Shown here: in pieces, positions 52,215 through 58,275 of the stretch
Numbering within the stretch: position 1 is the first letter of the stretch
How the letters are laid out: each line of letters opens with the position of its first letter
Source: Synechococcus sp. WH 8101
Lineage (GTDB): Bacteria > Cyanobacteriota > Cyanobacteriia > PCC-6307 > Cyanobiaceae
DNA length: 64,000 nt
Direction: 5' to 3'
NCBI RefSeq assembly: GCF_004209775.1
Contig: NZ_CP035914.1
Coordinates: 1,736,001-1,800,000, forward strand
Position numbers and translations under genes: made by a program
Notes under the pieces: generated by a model
The model's database searches: none
Told to the model about the DNA's origin: nothing
What the model saw: only the letters and a program-made list of their open reading frames with translations

Positions 52215-52682
52215 TCACCCACCGAGGAGAAAGGCGCGCAGCGAACCGATCGCTCCAGCCTGAGACGGTTCGGACACCAGCGCTCCCGCCACCAAGCCAC
52301 CGGCCAGAACACCATTGGGCAGAAAACGGGAGGCCAGCCGGGCCTCCAGTTCGGCATTGATGTCGTCGTCGGGATAGAGGCTAAGCACCGCCATCACTTC
52401 GCGATCATCCATGAACTGGCGCACCAGGGGGGTGAGCAGGGCATCGGGGAGAAACCCCTGCTCGCGGCCGAACTGATGCTGGAGCCCATGAAACAGTTCA
52501 TGGCGCGCCACCTCCGCCATGCTGCGCTGCTTGCGACGTGCCACCTCAGAACACAGGCTCACCTTCTGCTGCGCGGGATCAAAACTGCCGGCACCGTTGT
52601 GAATCGCCTGGCAGCCACTCCCTCCCTCCACCACCTGAATGCCCGCCAACGACGACACCAGCAGGAGCAGAAACAGGGGCAT
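52215..52682 (-). CDS. Small secreted zincin-like protein (HExxH)
   Basis: A 155-residue protein with an N-terminal signal peptide (about 1-17, MPLFLLLLVSSLAGIQ). VARHELFHGLQHQFG contains HELFH, a gluzincin-type zinc motif. Cysteines in SGCQAIHNG and SLCSEVA could form a disulfide. Its job is unknown; a periplasmic peptidase or a zinc-binding chaperone is possible. It is on the same strand as the ExbB/ExbD set, 71 bp after the TonB-position gene. Confidence 0.62.
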   Translation of the reverse strand: MPLFLLLLVSSLAGIQVVEGGSGCQAIHNGAGSFDPAQQKVSLCSEVARRKQRSMAEVARHELFHGLQHQFGREQGFLPDALLTPLVRQFMDDREVMAVLSLYPDDDINAELEARLASRFLPNGVLAGGLVAGALVSEPSQAGAIGSLRAFLLGG

Positions 52683-52753: not shown

Positions 52754-53446
52754 CTATTCGAAGGGTCGACGTCCGATCCAGACCCCCTGATCGTCGGCCC
52801 TCACCAGGAACTGATCGGCCTCGGATGTGAGGCTCAATCGGTTGAGCTGCTTCACGTTGACGCCAGGAAAGGCCGTGAGGGGCAAGCGCCGGAGCTGTAT
52901 CCCCTCGGGGAGTGGGCCGAAACGCTCAGGCCAGCTCCGCACCAGGGTTCCCTCCTCCCAACGGGCCCGGATCAACTCCACGGACACCCCTGAAGCCACA
53001 GCGACAGCAGCCGACGGGCGTGGTGAGACAGCTGGTGCATTGTCAACAGGCTTGGCCTTCGCAGCAGCCTTGCCGTTGGCAACAGCCTTGCCGTTGGCAA
53101 CAGCCTTGTCCCCCGATGCACTCGGTGGGCAGGCCGGGTCCTTCTCGGCACCGGGCTTGGCAGCCGCATCCTTGGCCTCGACCAGCTCCGGTGGCGGCGG
53201 CAACTTGGCACTGAGAGTCAGTAGGGAGGAGGGCACCAGCGGCTCCTGTCCACCCAGGCGCCGGCTCAGCCTCACGAGCTGGCGCGTGTTGTCCACCACC
53301 GTGGCCGCAGCGGCGGGAGGCGCGGCTCGGCTGCGCCAGCTGGAGGCACCGATCACCGCCGCGTGGATTGCGATGGCCACCGCAACAGGAAGGGCCAAGG
53401 GCCACGCTTCAGGGGCGCGCCGGAGGAGGGAGTTCAAGGTCCACAT
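52754..53446 (-). CDS. Single-span protein in the TonB position of an ExbB/ExbD set
   Basis: A 230-residue protein with one N-terminal membrane span (about 17-33, LALPVAVAIAIHAAVIGAS). A long Ala/Pro/Lys-rich linker includes the repeat AVANGKAVANGK, then a ~75-residue C-terminal domain (VSVELIRARWEEGTLVRSWP...). The layout is that of TonB or TolA, but the C-terminal TonB sequence is not recognised, so only the position and topology support that role. The ATG at 53446 overlaps the preceding ExbD-like gene by 38 bp. Confidence 0.66.
   Translation of the reverse strand: MWTLNSLLRRAPEAWPLALPVAVAIAIHAAVIGASSWRSRAAPPAAAATVVDNTRQLVRLSRRLGGQEPLVPSSLLTLSAKLPPPPELVEAKDAAAKPGAEKDPACPPSASGDKAVANGKAVANGKAAAKAKPVDNAPAVSPRPSAAVAVASGVSVELIRARWEEGTLVRSWPERFGPLPEGIQLRRLPLTAFPGVNVKQLNRLSLTSEADQFLVRADDQGVWIGRRPFE
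53067..53108. repeat. 18-bp tandem repeat in the linker-coding region
   Basis: The unit GCCTTGCCGTTGGCAACA (plus strand) is present twice in full, with the next 6 bases repeated again. It encodes the AVANGK repeats of the TonB-position protein. Such repeats can change copy number and so the linker length. Confidence 0.75.
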
Positions 53447-53768
53447 GGAGCGTGCTGGAGTCAAGTTGGGGGAGCAGGTCCTGAACCACACCCCAGGGAA
53501 CCTGGGGTGCCACCACCAAGCGAACGCGCGTGCTGGAATCCAGGCGTTCGGCGCGCCGCAGGAGAGCGGGCAGGGCGGTGGCGGCAATCGGGCGGTTCCA
53601 GAGTCGGAGCGAGCCATCGGCGGCCAGATGGAGACTGACTAGTCCTTGCCGCGCTGGCAATTGCCGCTGCCACTGGGGCAGCACCACCGCTGCCGTGGCG
53701 AGAAGCGCAACGGAGACACTGGAAGCAGCGAAGGCCAGCGCCCAGGGCGCCGATGGCGTCTCGTTCAT
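53409..53768 (-). CDS. ExbD-like protein 2 without the membrane aspartate
   Basis: A 119-residue protein with one N-terminal membrane span (about 9-29) and an ExbD-type periplasmic domain. VSLHLAADGSLRLWNRPIAATALPALLRRAE matches the strand-helix order of ExbD (V.V...G.....R.V....L...L). The membrane span lacks the Asp that ExbD and TolR use for proton flow. The start overlaps ExbD-like 1 by 4 bp (ATGA). It may be a structural partner rather than an active stator. Confidence 0.63.
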   Translation of the reverse strand: MNETPSAPWALAFAASSVSVALLATAAVVLPQWQRQLPARQGLVSLHLAADGSLRLWNRPIAATALPALLRRAERLDSSTRVRLVVAPQVPWGVVQDLLPQLDSSTLHVDLELPPPARP

Positions 53769-54127
53769 GGCTGCGCCAATCCCTCCGGTCGCTCCAGACG
53801 AATCGGCACGTTGCTCTGGCGCCTCAGCCAGCTGAGATCGGCCGCGACCGCTGCACTGGTGCGGGCACTAGAGGGCAGAAGCAGCACCGCAGAGGGCTTG
53901 GGCCTGGCCTGACGCAGGGAGCGGGCCAACACCGCGGACGACACGGCATCACCATTGAGGTACCAGCTGCCGCTGCTGGAGCGGACCAACAGCCATTGGC
54001 CCGCCGTCCGGGTCCTGGGTGCCGCCTCGACGACGGCAAGATCCTGCGAACTCAGCAACGCAGGCACCACAGCAAGAAAGCCGGTCAGGCTGACCACAAC
54101 AACCGCAGTGGCAAGCACGAGAGGCAT
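53765..54127 (-). CDS. ExbD-like protein 1 without the membrane aspartate
   Basis: A 120-residue protein with a membrane span at about 3-25 (LVLATAVVVVSLTGFLAVVPAL) and then WLLVRSSSGSWYLNGDAVSSAVLARSLRQAR, which again has the ExbD strand-helix layout (W..NG..V....L...L). The first span has no Asp. The ATG at 54127 shares one base with the ExbB stop (TGATG), so translation is coupled. The pairing of two ExbD-fold proteins is unusual. Confidence 0.65.
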   Translation of the reverse strand: MPLVLATAVVVVSLTGFLAVVPALLSSQDLAVVEAAPRTRTAGQWLLVRSSSGSWYLNGDAVSSAVLARSLRQARPKPSAVLLLPSSARTSAAVAADLSWLRRQSNVPIRLERPEGLAQP

Positions 54128-54648
54128 CAACCCAGTGCCGCTCGGCGGTGGAAACAGGCGTCGGCGAAGGTGCTGATCACCGCCTGGCGTTGCATCCGGC
54201 AGAGACGCTGCACCACCAGGGCGATGGTGGCGATCAACAGACCCAGCACGGTGCCCACCAGCACCTGGCCATAGCCCACGACCAGGGCAGCACTCTGCGC
54301 CGGCAGCACCAGATCTGGGCCCAGATCCCTGAGCAAACGCATGAGGCCCACCACGCTGGCGAGCAAACCGAGCAGGGGGCCGAGCACCATGGCGAGTTCC
54401 AAACAGCCATCCCAGCGAGATAGCGATCGCTCCAATCGGCGGCAAAGCCTCTCCTGATGCAATGCCGCCTGAGCGGCGGTTCGATCACTGACTTCATTGA
54501 GCAGAGCTTCGAGCTGGGCGGCACCGACCTGGCGCCACCGCCACCAGAAACGGAGGCGATCGATAGCCACCGCAACGACAGCCACCGACAGCAGCAGCAG
54601 AGGCACATTCAAAACGCCACCGTGGCGCAGGGCCTCAGCAGTCAGCAC
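54127..54648 (-). CDS. ExbB/TolQ/MotA-family channel-like protein
   Basis: A 173-residue protein with three helices: LLLLSVAVVAVAIDRLRFWW, LAMVLGPLLGLLASVVGLM and VLVGTVLGLLIATIALVVQRL. The last two match the ExbB/TolQ pair (PLLGLLGTVxG... and ...TaxGLxxAIxA). The Thr of the second helix is Ser here (LLASVVG) and the third-helix Glu of E. coli ExbB is replaced by Gln (GYGQVLVGT). It starts with GTG, 18 bp after the TauE-like gene. Confidence 0.78.
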   Translation of the reverse strand: MLTAEALRHGGVLNVPLLLLSVAVVAVAIDRLRFWWRWRQVGAAQLEALLNEVSDRTAAQAALHQERLCRRLERSLSRWDGCLELAMVLGPLLGLLASVVGLMRLLRDLGPDLVLPAQSAALVVGYGQVLVGTVLGLLIATIALVVQRLCRMQRQAVISTFADACFHRRAALG

Positions 54649-54666: not shown

Positions 54667-55500
54667 TCAGGTTGACGTTAGGGACCCCTCGACGACACCC
54701 ATGTGTTGCACCTGCTTGACAGGAGCGCGTTGACGCCGCAATCCCTCCCATCCCGTGAGCAAGGCCGCAGACACCAGCAAGACGGCGAAGCCGATGCGGA
54801 GCTGGCGATCCTTGAGATGGGGCGCCAGGGCCTGGCCGACCAGGCCACCCACCGCACCGCCGATCAACAGGGGAATCACCAGGGGCAAGCGTTCGGCAGG
54901 CCAATGACCCAGGGCACCGAGGGCCACCAGGCTGTTCAGGGCAATCAGCACCAGGCTGGTGCCGCTCGCCAACTGCATCGGCAGGCCGGCCAGAAGCACA
55001 AGGGCGGGCACGATCGCAAAGCCGCCACCAACGCCGGCAATGCCCGTCAGCAAGCCCACCAACACCCCCTGCAGCATCAGGGCCGGTGCTCGCACCGTGG
55101 CAGCGGCAACAGCAGGCTCGTCATCCGCTCGATCCGATCGCTTCTGGCGACTCAGCATCAACCAGGCCGCCAGCAGGGCCGCGACGGCAAACACAGCCAG
55201 CTGCACCGGCTCGGCGATCCAGCCGGCCTTCACCATCGTGCCTCCGATCCAGGCCCCCACCAGGGCCGGAACCCCCAGGAGCAGGGCCGGACGGGGCGCG
55301 ACAAGGCGACGGCGCAGGTAGGGAATCATGTTGGCGATCGCCAGCAGGGTCACCACCACCAGCGAAAGGGGCACCGCATCGCGGGTGGAGAGGCCGGCTC
55401 CCGTCACGAGGATGGGAAGCAGCAGGATCGATCCACCGGCGCCGAGCACGGCCAACAGGAAACCGATCACACCACCGCCGAAAAGCAGCAGCGCGATCAC
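54667..55500 (-). CDS. TauE/SafE family sulfite exporter-like protein
   Basis: A 277-residue membrane protein with eight helices. GFLLAVLGAGGSILLLPILV near the N-terminus and GLLTGIAGVGGGFAIVPALVLL in the middle are the two GxGGxxxxxP motifs of the family. It is predicted to move sulfite or organosulfonates out of the cell. It overlaps the rhodanese gene by 4 bp (55497-55500). The context is a sulfide/persulfide set. Confidence 0.9.
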   Translation of the reverse strand: MIALLLFGGGVIGFLLAVLGAGGSILLLPILVTGAGLSTRDAVPLSLVVVTLLAIANMIPYLRRRLVAPRPALLLGVPALVGAWIGGTMVKAGWIAEPVQLAVFAVAALLAAWLMLSRQKRSDRADDEPAVAAATVRAPALMLQGVLVGLLTGIAGVGGGFAIVPALVLLAGLPMQLASGTSLVLIALNSLVALGALGHWPAERLPLVIPLLIGGAVGGLVGQALAPHLKDRQLRIGFAVLLVSAALLTGWEGLRRQRAPVKQVQHMGVVEGSLTST

Positions 55501-56103: not shown

Positions 56104-57216
56104 TCAGACGCTGAGGGGTTCGGGCATGGGCAGCCCCTTGCGATACCAGTCCTGAAGTCCGCCGCGCAGGTTGGCGACCTTCTTGAAACCGGCCTTGACC
56201 AACTGCTGGGTGGCCAGGGCGGAACGGCTGCCGGCATGGCAGAACACCACGGTGGCAGCCTCGGGATCGAGCCGATCGAGATGCTCCGCCAGCTCGGGTA
56301 GGGGGATGTTGCGGCTGCCGGGCAGCGCGCCATCGGGCCCCCGGGCTTCATCGGCGTTGCGGACGTCGAGAATCGTGAGCTCGGCGAGATGGTCGGCGAC
56401 CCACTCGGGCTCCAGCTCCGGCAGACCGGAGTAGCTGCGCTTCAAGGGCGCCCACGCCGGTTGGTCCGGCCCATCGATCCGGGGGCGGCCACTGCGCAGA
56501 TTCGCCGGCAGGGCCTGGGCGATGCGATGCGGGTGGGGAAGCTTGAGCGATTCCATGTGAATCACGAAATCCCGCTCATCGGCCCCACCACCCAGACGGG
56601 CGTTGAGAGCACGCTCCTCGGCAACGCTCGTCACCTGACGACCGATGTAGTCGTGGCCGGGATACAGAAGGCACTGGTCGGGGAGGGAGAGGATCTGCTC
56701 GGTGATCGAGCGGTAGAGCGTGCGCGCATTTCCCTGCTGAAAGTCGCAGCGGCCGCAACCCCTGATCAACAGGGCATCGCCGGTGAAGGCCGCACTGGCG
56801 TCATCCAGCACGAAGGTCAGACAGCCATCGGTGTGCCCGGGAGTGGCGCGCACCTCCAGGGAACGGGCTCCGAAACCGACGCGATCGCCGTGTTGCAGCG
56901 GCAGGGTCACGTTCTCGGCCCTGGCGGCCTCGGCCAGACCGATGGCGCAGCCGGTGGCCTCATGCATCAGCCAGCTGCCAGTGACATGGTCGGCATGGGC
57001 GTGGGTGTCGAGGCAGGCCACCAGATCGACCCCCAGCTCACGCACCAGGGCGAGATCCCGCTCATGGCGCTCGAAGACCGGATCAATCAGCACACCCTTG
57101 GCCGAGGGCACATCCACCAGGAGATAGGTGAAGGTACCGGTCTCAGCATCGAACAACTGGCGCAGAAGCAGGGAATGGCCCCCTGCGGCGGCCTGGAGAA
57201 GCGAAGCGCTAGCCAT
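56104..57216 (-). CDS. Persulfide dioxygenase-rhodanese fusion (ETHE1-like)
   Basis: A 370-residue protein. The N-terminal metallo-beta-lactamase domain has THAHADH (residues 71-77), TPGHTDG (His128), FTGDAL (Asp147) and LYPGHDYIGR (His188), with CDFQQGNARTLYRS. This is the pattern of ETHE1 enzymes, which oxidise glutathione persulfide to sulfite. The C-terminal rhodanese has Cys326 in VVFCHAGSRSALA. Sulfite made here could be exported by the TauE-like protein. An 18-bp palindrome lies 18 bp before the start codon. Confidence 0.92.
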   Translation of the reverse strand: MASASLLQAAAGGHSLLLRQLFDAETGTFTYLLVDVPSAKGVLIDPVFERHERDLALVRELGVDLVACLDTHAHADHVTGSWLMHEATGCAIGLAEAARAENVTLPLQHGDRVGFGARSLEVRATPGHTDGCLTFVLDDASAAFTGDALLIRGCGRCDFQQGNARTLYRSITEQILSLPDQCLLYPGHDYIGRQVTSVAEERALNARLGGGADERDFVIHMESLKLPHPHRIAQALPANLRSGRPRIDGPDQPAWAPLKRSYSGLPELEPEWVADHLAELTILDVRNADEARGPDGALPGSRNIPLPELAEHLDRLDPEAATVVFCHAGSRSALATQQLVKAGFKKVANLRGGLQDWYRKGLPMPEPLSV

Positions 57217-57233
57217 AGGTCCTCAGATCACTT

Positions 57234-57251
57234 TATGAGTGTACACGCATA
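57234..57251. promoter_or_regulatory. 18-bp near-perfect palindrome, candidate ArsR-type operator
   Basis: TATGAGTGTACACGCATA is an inverted repeat (TATGnGTGTACACnCATA) with only the central n bases not matching. It lies 18-35 bp upstream of the persulfide dioxygenase start, where a repressor would block the promoter. The GTGTACAC core resembles known ArsR/SmtB-type sites. The regulator at 57913 is the natural candidate, but binding is inferred. Confidence 0.6.
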
Positions 57252-57261
57252 TCAACATCGC

Positions 57262-57861
57262 TCATGGCTTCCGGCCCAGGACCTGCACCACGGCGCTGTC
57301 TCCCTGGTGGTAGCGCCCTTCCGCGATCGGGCGCACACATTCCCGCAGGATGTCCAAGTCCAGCCCCTGCAGCTCTCGCTCCAGCTGCACCGGCTCCACC
57401 AGCAACTCGAGCACCGGCGGGCCGCCGCTGCCCCGGCCGAGCTGCCGGGGCGTGTAGGCCTCCAGCACCAGCACCCCACCAGGACGCAGGGCTGACACGG
57501 CCTCGCCGAGCACACGGGCGCGCAGCGGTGCCGGCAGGTGCATCCAGATCGCCACCACGAGATCCAGGCTTGCGGGGGCGGCTCGCCAGTCCGCCAGATC
57601 CCCCTGCAGCGTCTCCAGCTGAAGACCGCGCTGCGCCGCCAGCGACCGCGCTTTCTCCAGCCCCACCACACTGAGGTCCTGGACGGTGACGCGGTGTCCG
57701 AGGGCAGCGAGGTGAACGGCGTTACGCCCCTCCCCCTCCGCCAGACAGATCGCATCGCCTGGCGTCAGCGCCGCCGCCTGTTCCCGCAGAAAGTCATTCG
57801 GCTGATCGCCATAGGCGAAGCCGTCCTCCCGGTAGCGCTCGTCCCAGAAGCGCGCATCCAT
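57262..57861 (-). CDS. Class I SAM-dependent methyltransferase (TehB-like)
   Basis: A 199-residue methyltransferase. FWDERYREDGFAYGDQPNDFL opens it, then motif I AICLAEGEGRNAVHLAALGHRVTVQDLSV, and motif II LDLVVAIWMHLPA. The YGDQPNDFL start and short length resemble the TehB/thiopurine methyltransferase group, which methylates tellurite, selenite or thiols. Its place next to the sulfur genes suggests a thiol or sulfide substrate, but this is inference. It is 45 bp upstream of the persulfide dioxygenase gene and divergent from the ArsR-type gene. Confidence 0.88.
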   Translation of the reverse strand: MDARFWDERYREDGFAYGDQPNDFLREQAAALTPGDAICLAEGEGRNAVHLAALGHRVTVQDLSVVGLEKARSLAAQRGLQLETLQGDLADWRAAPASLDLVVAIWMHLPAPLRARVLGEAVSALRPGGVLVLEAYTPRQLGRGSGGPPVLELLVEPVQLERELQGLDLDILRECVRPIAEGRYHQGDSAVVQVLGRKP

Positions 57862-57880
57862 GGCCGCATCGCATCACGAC

Positions 57881-57912
57881 GGCATAATGCCTGTATCGGC
57901 ATAGGGGATGCC
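57881..57912. promoter_or_regulatory. Two GGCAT/ATGCC inverted repeats before the ArsR-type gene
   Basis: GGCAT-A-ATGCC at 57881-57891 and GGCAT-N5-ATGCC at 57898-57912 share the same arms. The second ends directly at the start codon of the regulator at 57913. They lie between divergent start codons and may bind the regulator. Confidence 0.5.
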
Positions 57913-58275
57913 ATGGCGAGACAACCAGAACACGCCGAAGGGTGTTCCATGCATCAGCTCTCCCCCGAAATGATCGAGGAGCTGAGCGGCTTTTTCCGAC
58001 TGCTGGGCGAACCGGCACGCCTGCGCCTGATGTGCGAAATCCGCAACGGCAGCAGCGATGTCGCCACTCTGATGGACCGTACCGGCTTCAGTCAGTCCCA
58101 TCTCAGCCGCCAGCTCGGCCAACTGCAGAAAGCCGGGCTGGTGCAGGTGGAACGCGATGGGAATCGCTCTCTTTACACCGCCACCGATCCAGTGGTGGAG
58201 GCCATCTGCCAGCTCGCGCAAGAGCGACTGATGAACCACCTGCGTCAACGACTCGACAGCCTCAATGTCGCCTGA
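57913..58275 (+). CDS. ArsR/SmtB-family regulator (possible persulfide or metal sensor)
   Basis: A 120-residue winged-helix regulator: LSGFFRLLGEPARLRLMCEIRNG (helices 1-2), TGFSQSHLSRQLGQLQKAGLVQVERDGNRSLYTA (recognition helix and wing). Cysteines are Cys11, Cys41 and Cys99. Cys41 lies in the RLxxLC position used by the SqrR/BigR persulfide sensors, whose second Cys is near 107; here the nearest is Cys99. It is divergent from the methyltransferase and persulfide genes, and the RBS GGGG lies 5 bp before the ATG (57904-57907). An ATG at 57949 is a weaker alternative. Confidence 0.85.
   Translation: MARQPEHAEGCSMHQLSPEMIEELSGFFRLLGEPARLRLMCEIRNGSSDVATLMDRTGFSQSHLSRQLGQLQKAGLVQVERDGNRSLYTATDPVVEAICQLAQERLMNHLRQRLDSLNVA

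Follow-up and report, generated by a model that had tools for sequence, protein, structure and literature searches.

What becomes of a proton-driven motor of the cell envelope when both of its axle subunits lack the residue that carries the proton? This question is raised by a four-gene operon in a 64,000-nucleotide stretch of the genome of Synechococcus sp. WH 8101 (contig NZ_CP035914.1, positions 1,736,001 to 1,800,000; the whole stretch is called the window here), which encodes an ExbB/TolQ-like subunit, two different ExbD-fold proteins (ExbD1 and ExbD2) and a TonB-like protein. The available part of PMC9389320 describes the aspartate (Asp) of ExbD, TolR and MotB as the ion site of 5:2 motors, and the accessible text of a review states that Asp25 is predicted to be indispensable to the transfer of protons and that the variants ExbD(D25N) and TonB(H20A) are inactive (PMC11658791). 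A first-pass annotation, drawn from the letters of the window alone, had noticed that both ExbD-like helices lack this Asp and had concluded that protons cannot take their usual path. The absence proved general: none of 73 ExbD1 and none of 72 ExbD2 proteins, which are all readable copies of the window-type operon, has Asp at the helix site, and comparison of these sequences supports the conclusion as well. Our reading, to which we give an even chance, is that an ExbB-ExbD-TonB complex lost its proton coupling once and was retained as a link across the envelope, passive or sensory in nature.

We searched the window ExbB against 400 genomes of the same family and obtained matches at 1e-5 in 86 of them, whose surroundings were read in 85 (all except G317). 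These matches comprise 74 operons of the window type, five operons of a second kind, called the sister operon below, and seven canonical systems, six of which were read (G322, G327, G332, G341, G345 and G369) and one of which (G317) was assigned from a Pfam ExbD match. The first-pass annotation had suggested looking for the four-gene order in other cyanobacteria, and it is indeed found in 74 of the 400 family genomes, distributed over ten genera; the sister operon occurs in three further genera, and the genus of the window is represented by 31 genomes, 7 of which carry the operon. One contig ends after exbB, so that the operon of G228 is counted on ExbB alone, and the operon of G153 is without ExbD2 for the same reason; hence ExbD1 is readable in 73 operons and ExbD2 in 72.

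The lost-Asp site was defined as the column at which the sister operon has Asp. It is occupied in ExbD1 by Gly (38 copies), Ala (27), Val (5), Ser (2) or Leu (1), and in ExbD2 by Ala (36), Ser (19) or Gly (17), that is, by Gly, Ala or Ser in 67/73 and 72/72 copies, respectively; the helix columns of three loci (L061, L068 and L089) come from trimmed proteins. A shift of the Asp to another position within the helix was rejected, the helix core (from -3 to +12 of the site) being nearly devoid of ionisable residues: one His (L067) and one Glu (L142) in the 73 ExbD1 rows, and none in the 72 ExbD2 rows. Outside the core, ExbD1 has His at -7 in 8 rows, Arg at -6 in 5 and Asp or Glu at +14 in 30 of 73, and ExbD2 has Asp or Glu at -8 in 40 of 70 rows and at -4 in 8; neither the -8 site of ExbD2 nor the +14 site of ExbD1 is acidic throughout the clade. 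Small residues make up 0.88, 1.00, 1.00, 0.65 and 0.62 of the ExbD2 rows at -7, -3, 0, +4 and +7, a spacing which in our reading may be that of a closely packed pair of helices. In the proteins of the window itself, helices 2-3 of ExbB and the cores of both ExbD helices contain no carboxylate. Supply of the Asp in trans by a canonical ExbD was likewise rejected: of the 79 genomes with an Asp-less or a sister operon, only G083 has a Pfam ExbD outside the operon among the matches listed. A second MotA_ExbB protein exists in five of the 79 (G083, G089, G128, G153 and G275). Four of these proteins, encoded by open frames of 278-303 amino acids (aa) at G089:C4:290271, G128:C2:7526, G153:C292:8445 and G275:C45:99235, have no ExbD partner among the Pfam ExbD matches listed.

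The sister operon (genomes G077, G085, G096, G122 and G126, of genera g48, g56 and g67; loci L091-L094 and L115) has four genes arranged as in the window, each orthologous to its counterpart there, and in all five copies both ExbDs have Asp, ExbB has Glu at its equivalent site and the TonB-like helix has His. The first-pass annotation had held that homologues with Asp in these helices would count against its claim. They do occur, in five genomes of three other genera; the observation itself is not undone by them, and the assignment of the small proteins to ExbD is strengthened. A 60-row ExbB tree, which contains Asp-less rows from 36 of the 74 operons, unites all of these in a single clade (100/100) and splits them, together with the five sister rows, from the 19 canonical rows (100/100). 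With its midpoint root, the tree allows the sister rows to be either sister or paraphyletic to the Asp-less clade; in either case one event of Asp loss is enough, because all Asp-less rows form one clade. To judge from these sequences, the Asp is probably ancestral and was lost in a single clade. The tree omits two loci (L063 and L071) and includes only the final 170 residues of the L077 ExbB. The program flagged a joining of long branches that involves L111, as well as an unusual composition of six canonical rows, all of which were retained.

The ratio of nonsynonymous to synonymous substitution rates (dN/dS), calculated pairwise in 13 close pairs and given here as point values with no significance test, was below 1 in all 51 gene-by-pair comparisons, the highest being 0.94. 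It ranged from 0.03 to 0.32 for exbB, 0.13 to 0.57 for exbD1, 0.03 to 0.55 for exbD2 (12 pairs) and 0.20 to 0.94 for the tonB-like gene. With no Asp in any copy of either ExbD and dN/dS below 1, the pattern is beyond chance. A wider search, with the Asp-less ExbD2 profile against 291 genomes of the class, returned 19 matches at 1e-5. The strong ones (G000, G195 and G035) belong to the family and lack the Asp, one TGA being flagged inside the ExbD2 match of G035; three of the 16 weak ones were read (L165-L167) and all have Asp. None of these six matches read out of 19 is an Asp-less relative from outside the family.

The window ExbD1, ExbD2 and TonB-like protein match no Pfam or NCBIfam model individually, and Pfam ExbD, at an E-value (E) of up to 0.1, recognises just 1 of 17 Asp-less ExbD1 proteins (E 0.051). 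These results are the ones that would favour taking the two small proteins for look-alikes in topology without kinship to ExbD, a view to which we give next to no credence. Compared by hhalign, Asp-less ExbD1 matches the Asp-bearing ExbD1 of L091-L094 with E 9.6e-16 and Asp-less ExbD2 its own orthologue with E 7.5e-15, the cross-pairings of ExbD1 with ExbD2 being weaker (4.4e-5 and 9.5e-6). In the periplasmic domain, both also align with canonical ExbDs of cyanobacteria (2.9e-6 for ExbD1, 7.6e-7 for ExbD2); these canonical proteins were chosen by their Asp/Asn motif, so that their Asp is no evidence. Pfam ExbD is found in 10 of 17 Asp-less ExbD2 proteins (best 1.1e-5). Profiles made of 17 Asp-less rows each, with no Asp-bearing sequences, put ExbD first in the PDB: for ExbD2 the best match was 8pek (6e-5) and all six listed are ExbD, and for ExbD1 it was 7ajq, at just E 0.0025, with two of the eight listed, the top two, being ExbD. 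Five of the alignments were built from 16-20 loci selected by hand together with the protein of the window, and that of the TonB-like proteins leaves out L065 and L090.

AlphaFold2 models, built from only two sequences each, had a mean predicted local distance difference test score (pLDDT) of 66.8 for ExbD2 and 68.1 for ExbD1, mostly 79-87 in the periplasmic part and under 50 in the N-terminal membrane stretch, which does not form a full helix. Periplasmic structures of ExbD ranked first for both in Foldseek (best E 3.6e-5 for ExbD2 and 3.7e-3 for ExbD1), and no ExbD1 match reached E 0.001 or better, which is a further point for the look-alike view. Profiles and models together support the assignment to the ExbD fold, for ExbD1 through orthology, position in the operon and weaker scores, and the first-pass annotation was right on this point; a rejection by profile search, which it had named as a result that would refute it, did not occur. 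A misassigned topology was rejected on the profile matches and the orthology with Asp-bearing ExbDs, and for ExbD2 the look-alike view appears close to refuted at the profile level.

Three positions of ExbB, which we take to be equivalent to Glu176, Thr148 and Thr181 of E. coli ExbB, are Gln128, Ser98 and Thr133 in the window. The first-pass annotation had reported Gln for the Glu and Ser for the Thr; both changes are present, but Thr133 is kept and Ser98 is atypical, the Thr148-like site being Thr in 70 of 74 proteins and Ser in four, the window included. The Thr181-like site is Thr in 72 of 74, and the Glu176-like site is Gln in 42, Asp in 16, Glu and Arg in 4 each, Lys and Met in 2 each, Ala, Leu and Thr in 1 each and a gap in 1; the broken copies of L071 and L152 entered these counts by their matched piece. 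It had also been proposed that conserved polar residues be sought in the first helices of homologues: the ExbD cores offered almost nothing ionisable, as described above, and the TonB-like helix has His (37), Asn (25) or Gln (9) in all 71 Asp-less rows that could be resolved, some of them assigned by eye, with His in the window. Asn is tolerated in place of the His of the TonB helix. Since His, Asn or Gln of the TonB-like helix and the Thr ring of ExbB are kept, the contacts between the subunits look maintained.

Beyond its helix, the TonB-like protein has a near-invariant LPPPP motif, and Trp163 and Arg186 of its C-terminal region are invariant in the 20-row alignment. The topology and the unfamiliar C-terminus that had been ascribed to it are both borne out: among 20 TonB-like proteins there was no match to Pfam TonB_C at E 0.1 and none to Pfam TolA. 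Homology of the C-terminus to canonical TonB was rejected, hhalign with six clean TonBs having aligned 23 columns of the membrane helix with a probability of 5%. A conserved TxxLLRxSR stretch may be a D-box, which the accessible part of PMC10907165 describes as a TonB strand binding ExbD near the membrane; it matches the published pattern only in part.

The receptor plug PF07715 was found in only one (G083) of the 79 genomes with an Asp-less or sister operon, and so was TonB_C (PF03544), which in G083 shares a contig with a separate canonical ExbBD system, the operon being on another contig. The barrel PF00593 occurs in 30 of 400 family genomes, likely the same 400 as in the ExbB search; G083 is the only one of the 79 among the matches listed, and the barrel was not found in G000. 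Judged by its receptors, the operon does not appear to be a TonB-dependent transport system. Receptors are absent from Prochlorococcus genomes according to the available text of PMC2771747, and picocyanobacterial siderophore operons contain tonB-exbBD according to that of PMC10119275.

The coordinates of the operon and of the genes next to it are collected in Table 1.

Table 1. The Asp-less operon and its flanking genes, in window coordinates
Feature	Position	Strand	Remarks
ExbB/TolQ-like subunit	54127..54648	-	173 aa, GTG start; Pfam MotA_ExbB match
ExbD-fold protein 1 (ExbD1)	53765..54127	-	120 aa; membrane helix at extreme N-terminus, Val at the Asp column
ExbD-fold protein 2 (ExbD2)	53409..53768	-	119 aa; Ser at the Asp column of the helix
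TonB-like protein	52754..53446	-	230 aa from ATG at 53446; single N-terminal helix with His, Pro-rich LPPPP
Possible fifth gene (in the window's genus)	52215..52682	-	155 aa, probably exported; HExxH and downstream ELEARLA, possible zinc metallopeptidase
TauE/SafE-type transporter gene	54667..55500	-	upstream, ends 18 nucleotides (nt) before exbB; outside the conserved system

The four genes lie where the first-pass annotation had placed them, on the minus strand, and their compact overlapping order is confirmed: neighbours overlap by 1, 4 and 38 nt, as calculated from the coordinates, and for the TonB-like gene a longer frame from 53617 is likewise open. The window ExbB matches Pfam MotA_ExbB with E 1.8e-10 and 41.1 bits (cut-off 22.9), the single such match in the host genome (2.63 Mb, one contig). 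Many other loci carry genes other than TauE/SafE upstream of exbB. Near the TauE gene, also upstream of the operon, positions 56104-58275 encode a metallo-beta-lactamase/rhodanese protein and an ArsR-type regulator, which by their sequence look like a sulfur or persulfide cluster. At L091-L094, the sister operon is found behind an ATP-binding cassette (ABC) exporter cluster (HlyD-like, DevC-like and ATPase genes, recognised by eye) and before a glycosyltransferase-like gene.

The HExxH gene starts 71 nt downstream of the TonB-like gene on the same strand, and its product has a weak match, below cut-off, to Pfam Zn_peptidase_2 (E 0.012), its motifs having been spotted by eye. At 61% identity or more, the gene is present in 7 of 7 genomes of the genus with the operon and in 0 of 24 without it, two of the 24 having a 37% relative. 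Beyond the genus it occurs in 2 of 33 further Asp-less genomes, adjacent in G195 and about 2.5 kb away in G373; two genomes with the sister operon, G077 and G122, encode a 44-48% relative elsewhere. A shared locus, rather than a shared function, could lie behind this co-occurrence.

Another neighbour is the phosphate regulator gene ptrA. Of the 72 Asp-less loci with a TonB-like match, 12 have a ptrA frame that opens at most 115 bp downstream of the operon and on its strand; directly adjoining copies belong to four genera (g33, g54, g68 and g82). At least 700 bp of downstream sequence were at hand for 70 of the 72 loci, and the lengths of the fetched flanks vary. Anywhere in the fetched flank, ptrA was seen in 18 of 72 Asp-less, 0 of 5 sister and 0 of 22 canonical loci. 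The copy of L084 scores above the cut-off of the NCBIfam PtrA equivalog (358 bits vs 300) and is followed by PhoB-like and PhoR-like genes, each under its own cut-off; PstS is near the copy of L088 and ArsJ near that of L076. More broadly, ptrA and, in several loci, PhoB/PhoR-like genes, PstS, ArsJ with GAPDH, ArsR and an SBF-type carrier (perhaps Acr3) were noticed around the operon among L072-L095 and other loci. By gene content, such loci would constitute a phosphate/arsenate neighbourhood.

How might an operon of this kind work? ExbB, ExbD1, ExbD2 and the TonB-like protein would assemble into one complex descended from a proton-driven motor, in which, in the ancestor of the clade, both axle helices would have come to bear a small residue in place of the Asp that carries the proton. 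The complex would then have been retained, spanning the envelope, with no proton flow through the ExbD Asp. ExbB would serve as the anchor in the inner membrane, a heterodimer of ExbD1 and ExbD2 would keep the TonB-like arm close to the membrane, and the C-terminal region of the arm may touch a periplasmic or outer-membrane partner other than a TonB-dependent receptor. The most likely role would be that of a passive or stress-sensing tether, and the adjacency of ptrA in four genera suggests that it may be used under phosphate (or arsenate) stress. We infer complex formation, the 5:2 stoichiometry, the heterodimer, the lack of proton conduction, the tether role and the phosphate link from the observations above, and confidence decreases along the way from the missing Asp to the absence of proton flow, from there to a passive or sensory link, and finally to a role in phosphate stress. 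We are evenly divided on the full proposal, namely that both axle subunits dropped proton coupling in one event and that an unpowered complex has been kept under selection in ten genera, with a possible tie to phosphate stress; it is probable that the machine is employed in a way that is independent of proton flow.

Several observations weigh against this proposal. The main fact that it leaves unexplained is the near-invariant Thr ring, which is hard to explain if there is nothing ionic in the pore, and the Glu176-like site of ExbB is Asp or Glu in 20 of 74 proteins and Arg or Lys in 6. The ionisable residues near the core of the ExbD helices make an alternative charge path possible in part of the clade. 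The AlphaFold2 models are without the membrane helix and hence do not display its entry into the ExbB ring. In 2 of the 74 operons exbB is broken, by a split frame in G231 and by stops in G156, and one of these operons is beside ptrA (L152). Finally, the seven loci of the window's genus have no ptrA near the operon, and no locus of the largest genus, g6, has it adjacent; most flanks in g6 extend to about 2.5 kb, and three of its loci have ptrA about 3 kb off on the opposite strand.

The same facts can be read in other ways, and the new uses suggested in the first-pass annotation (scaffold, gate or another ion) can be ranked only by their likelihood. The machine could still be driven by ions through another site, the Thr ring, the Asp, Glu or Gln of ExbB helix 3 and the His, Asn or Gln of the TonB-like helix taking the place of the ExbD Asp. 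Such an arrangement would suit the conservation of the ring and of the TonB-like polar residue and the acidic residue in 20 of 74 ExbBs, and in L057-L061 an Asp or Glu stands about seven residues ahead of the Gln; yet we regard it as unlikely, given that the window proteins lack a carboxylate in ExbB helices 2-3 and in the ExbD cores. Moreover, because the ExbB site varies and the TonB-like His is replaced by Asn or Gln in 34 of 71 helices, no one ionisable site is common to the clade. Quite unlikely, in our opinion, is a signalling or gating device in which the TonB-like arm senses the envelope and ExbB/ExbD acts on a partner that it controls, for instance the HExxH protein or the Pho regulators. 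The HExxH gene does track the operon within the genus and was not found in the genome of G231, where exbB lies in two frames (L071), and ptrA follows the operon in four other genera; against this, the HExxH gene is present in just 9 of the 40 Asp-less genomes tested, from two genera, with the G373 copy at a distance, its relatives exist in two sister-operon genomes and in two operon-less genomes of the genus, and it may merely travel with the locus. Nor is ptrA adjacent in more than 12 of 72 loci, and scans with Pfam and NCBIfam revealed no signalling domain in the four proteins.

That the operon is what remains of a TonB system in decay after the loss of its receptors seems very improbable to us, in spite of the lack of a receptor plug in 78 of 79 genomes, the patchy distribution within the genus, the two broken exbB copies and the one tonB-like pair with dN/dS of 0.94. 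The other 72 exbB matches are free of stops or splits, dN/dS lies between 0.03 and 0.57 for exbB, exbD1 and exbD2 in all pairs calculated, the order of the genes is preserved across ten genera and small residues are retained at the lost-Asp site. Pseudogene decay was rejected on the dN/dS values and the conserved order.

With the ExbB-ExbD-TonB energiser, the operon shares the ExbB family, the periplasmic fold of ExbD, the His helix and Pro-rich linker of the TonB-like protein, and compactness; it differs in having two distinct ExbDs, neither with Asp, a C-terminus that is not TonB_C and no TonB-dependent receptor found in the genome. The sister operon is alike in gene order, one-to-one orthology and the lack of a receptor plug in its five genomes, and is set apart by its Asp in both ExbDs, Glu in ExbB and His in the TonB-like helix. 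TolQ-TolR-TolA of Tol-Pal belongs to the same motor superfamily and has a periplasmic arm working for the envelope rather than for a receptor, but its TolR has a conserved Asp, according to the accessible part of PMC9389320, and the 20 TonB-like proteins searched have no Pfam TolA match. Similar in layout are the tandem-ExbD operons of g32 and g72 (L101-L103), in which ExbB is followed by two ExbDs and TonB and the second ExbD has Asn (LPLIN); unlike the window operon, their first ExbD retains the Asp, and receptor barrels were found in G061, G101 and G142. The Asn in the second ExbD of L101, L102 and L103 is a natural half-loss of the proton site. Anabaena TonB2 and SjdR also resemble TonB and have roles in the envelope without being clearly involved in the uptake of siderophores, and the available text of PMC8597729, which describes them, reports no Asp-less ExbD pair.

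A literature search brought up, in the portions of text that it covers, nothing recognisably on Asp-less ExbD operons or on a motor turned non-motor with all its parts. The accessible parts of PMC8597729, PMC2771747 and PMC10119275 do not speak of this operon, and in those of PMC10912551 and PMC11358556 ExbB is mentioned in the reference lists only. For genomes such as that of Synechococcus sp. WH 8101, our results mean that the label 'MotA/TolQ/ExbB proton channel' need not imply TonB-dependent transport or a proton channel. A clade without Asp in both ExbDs, next to a living sister with Asp from the same family, is a natural experiment on what such a complex does without proton flow, and it bears also on why the Thr ring is retained. 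If our reading is true, the operon would be a case of a motor turned into a non-motor with all its parts retained.

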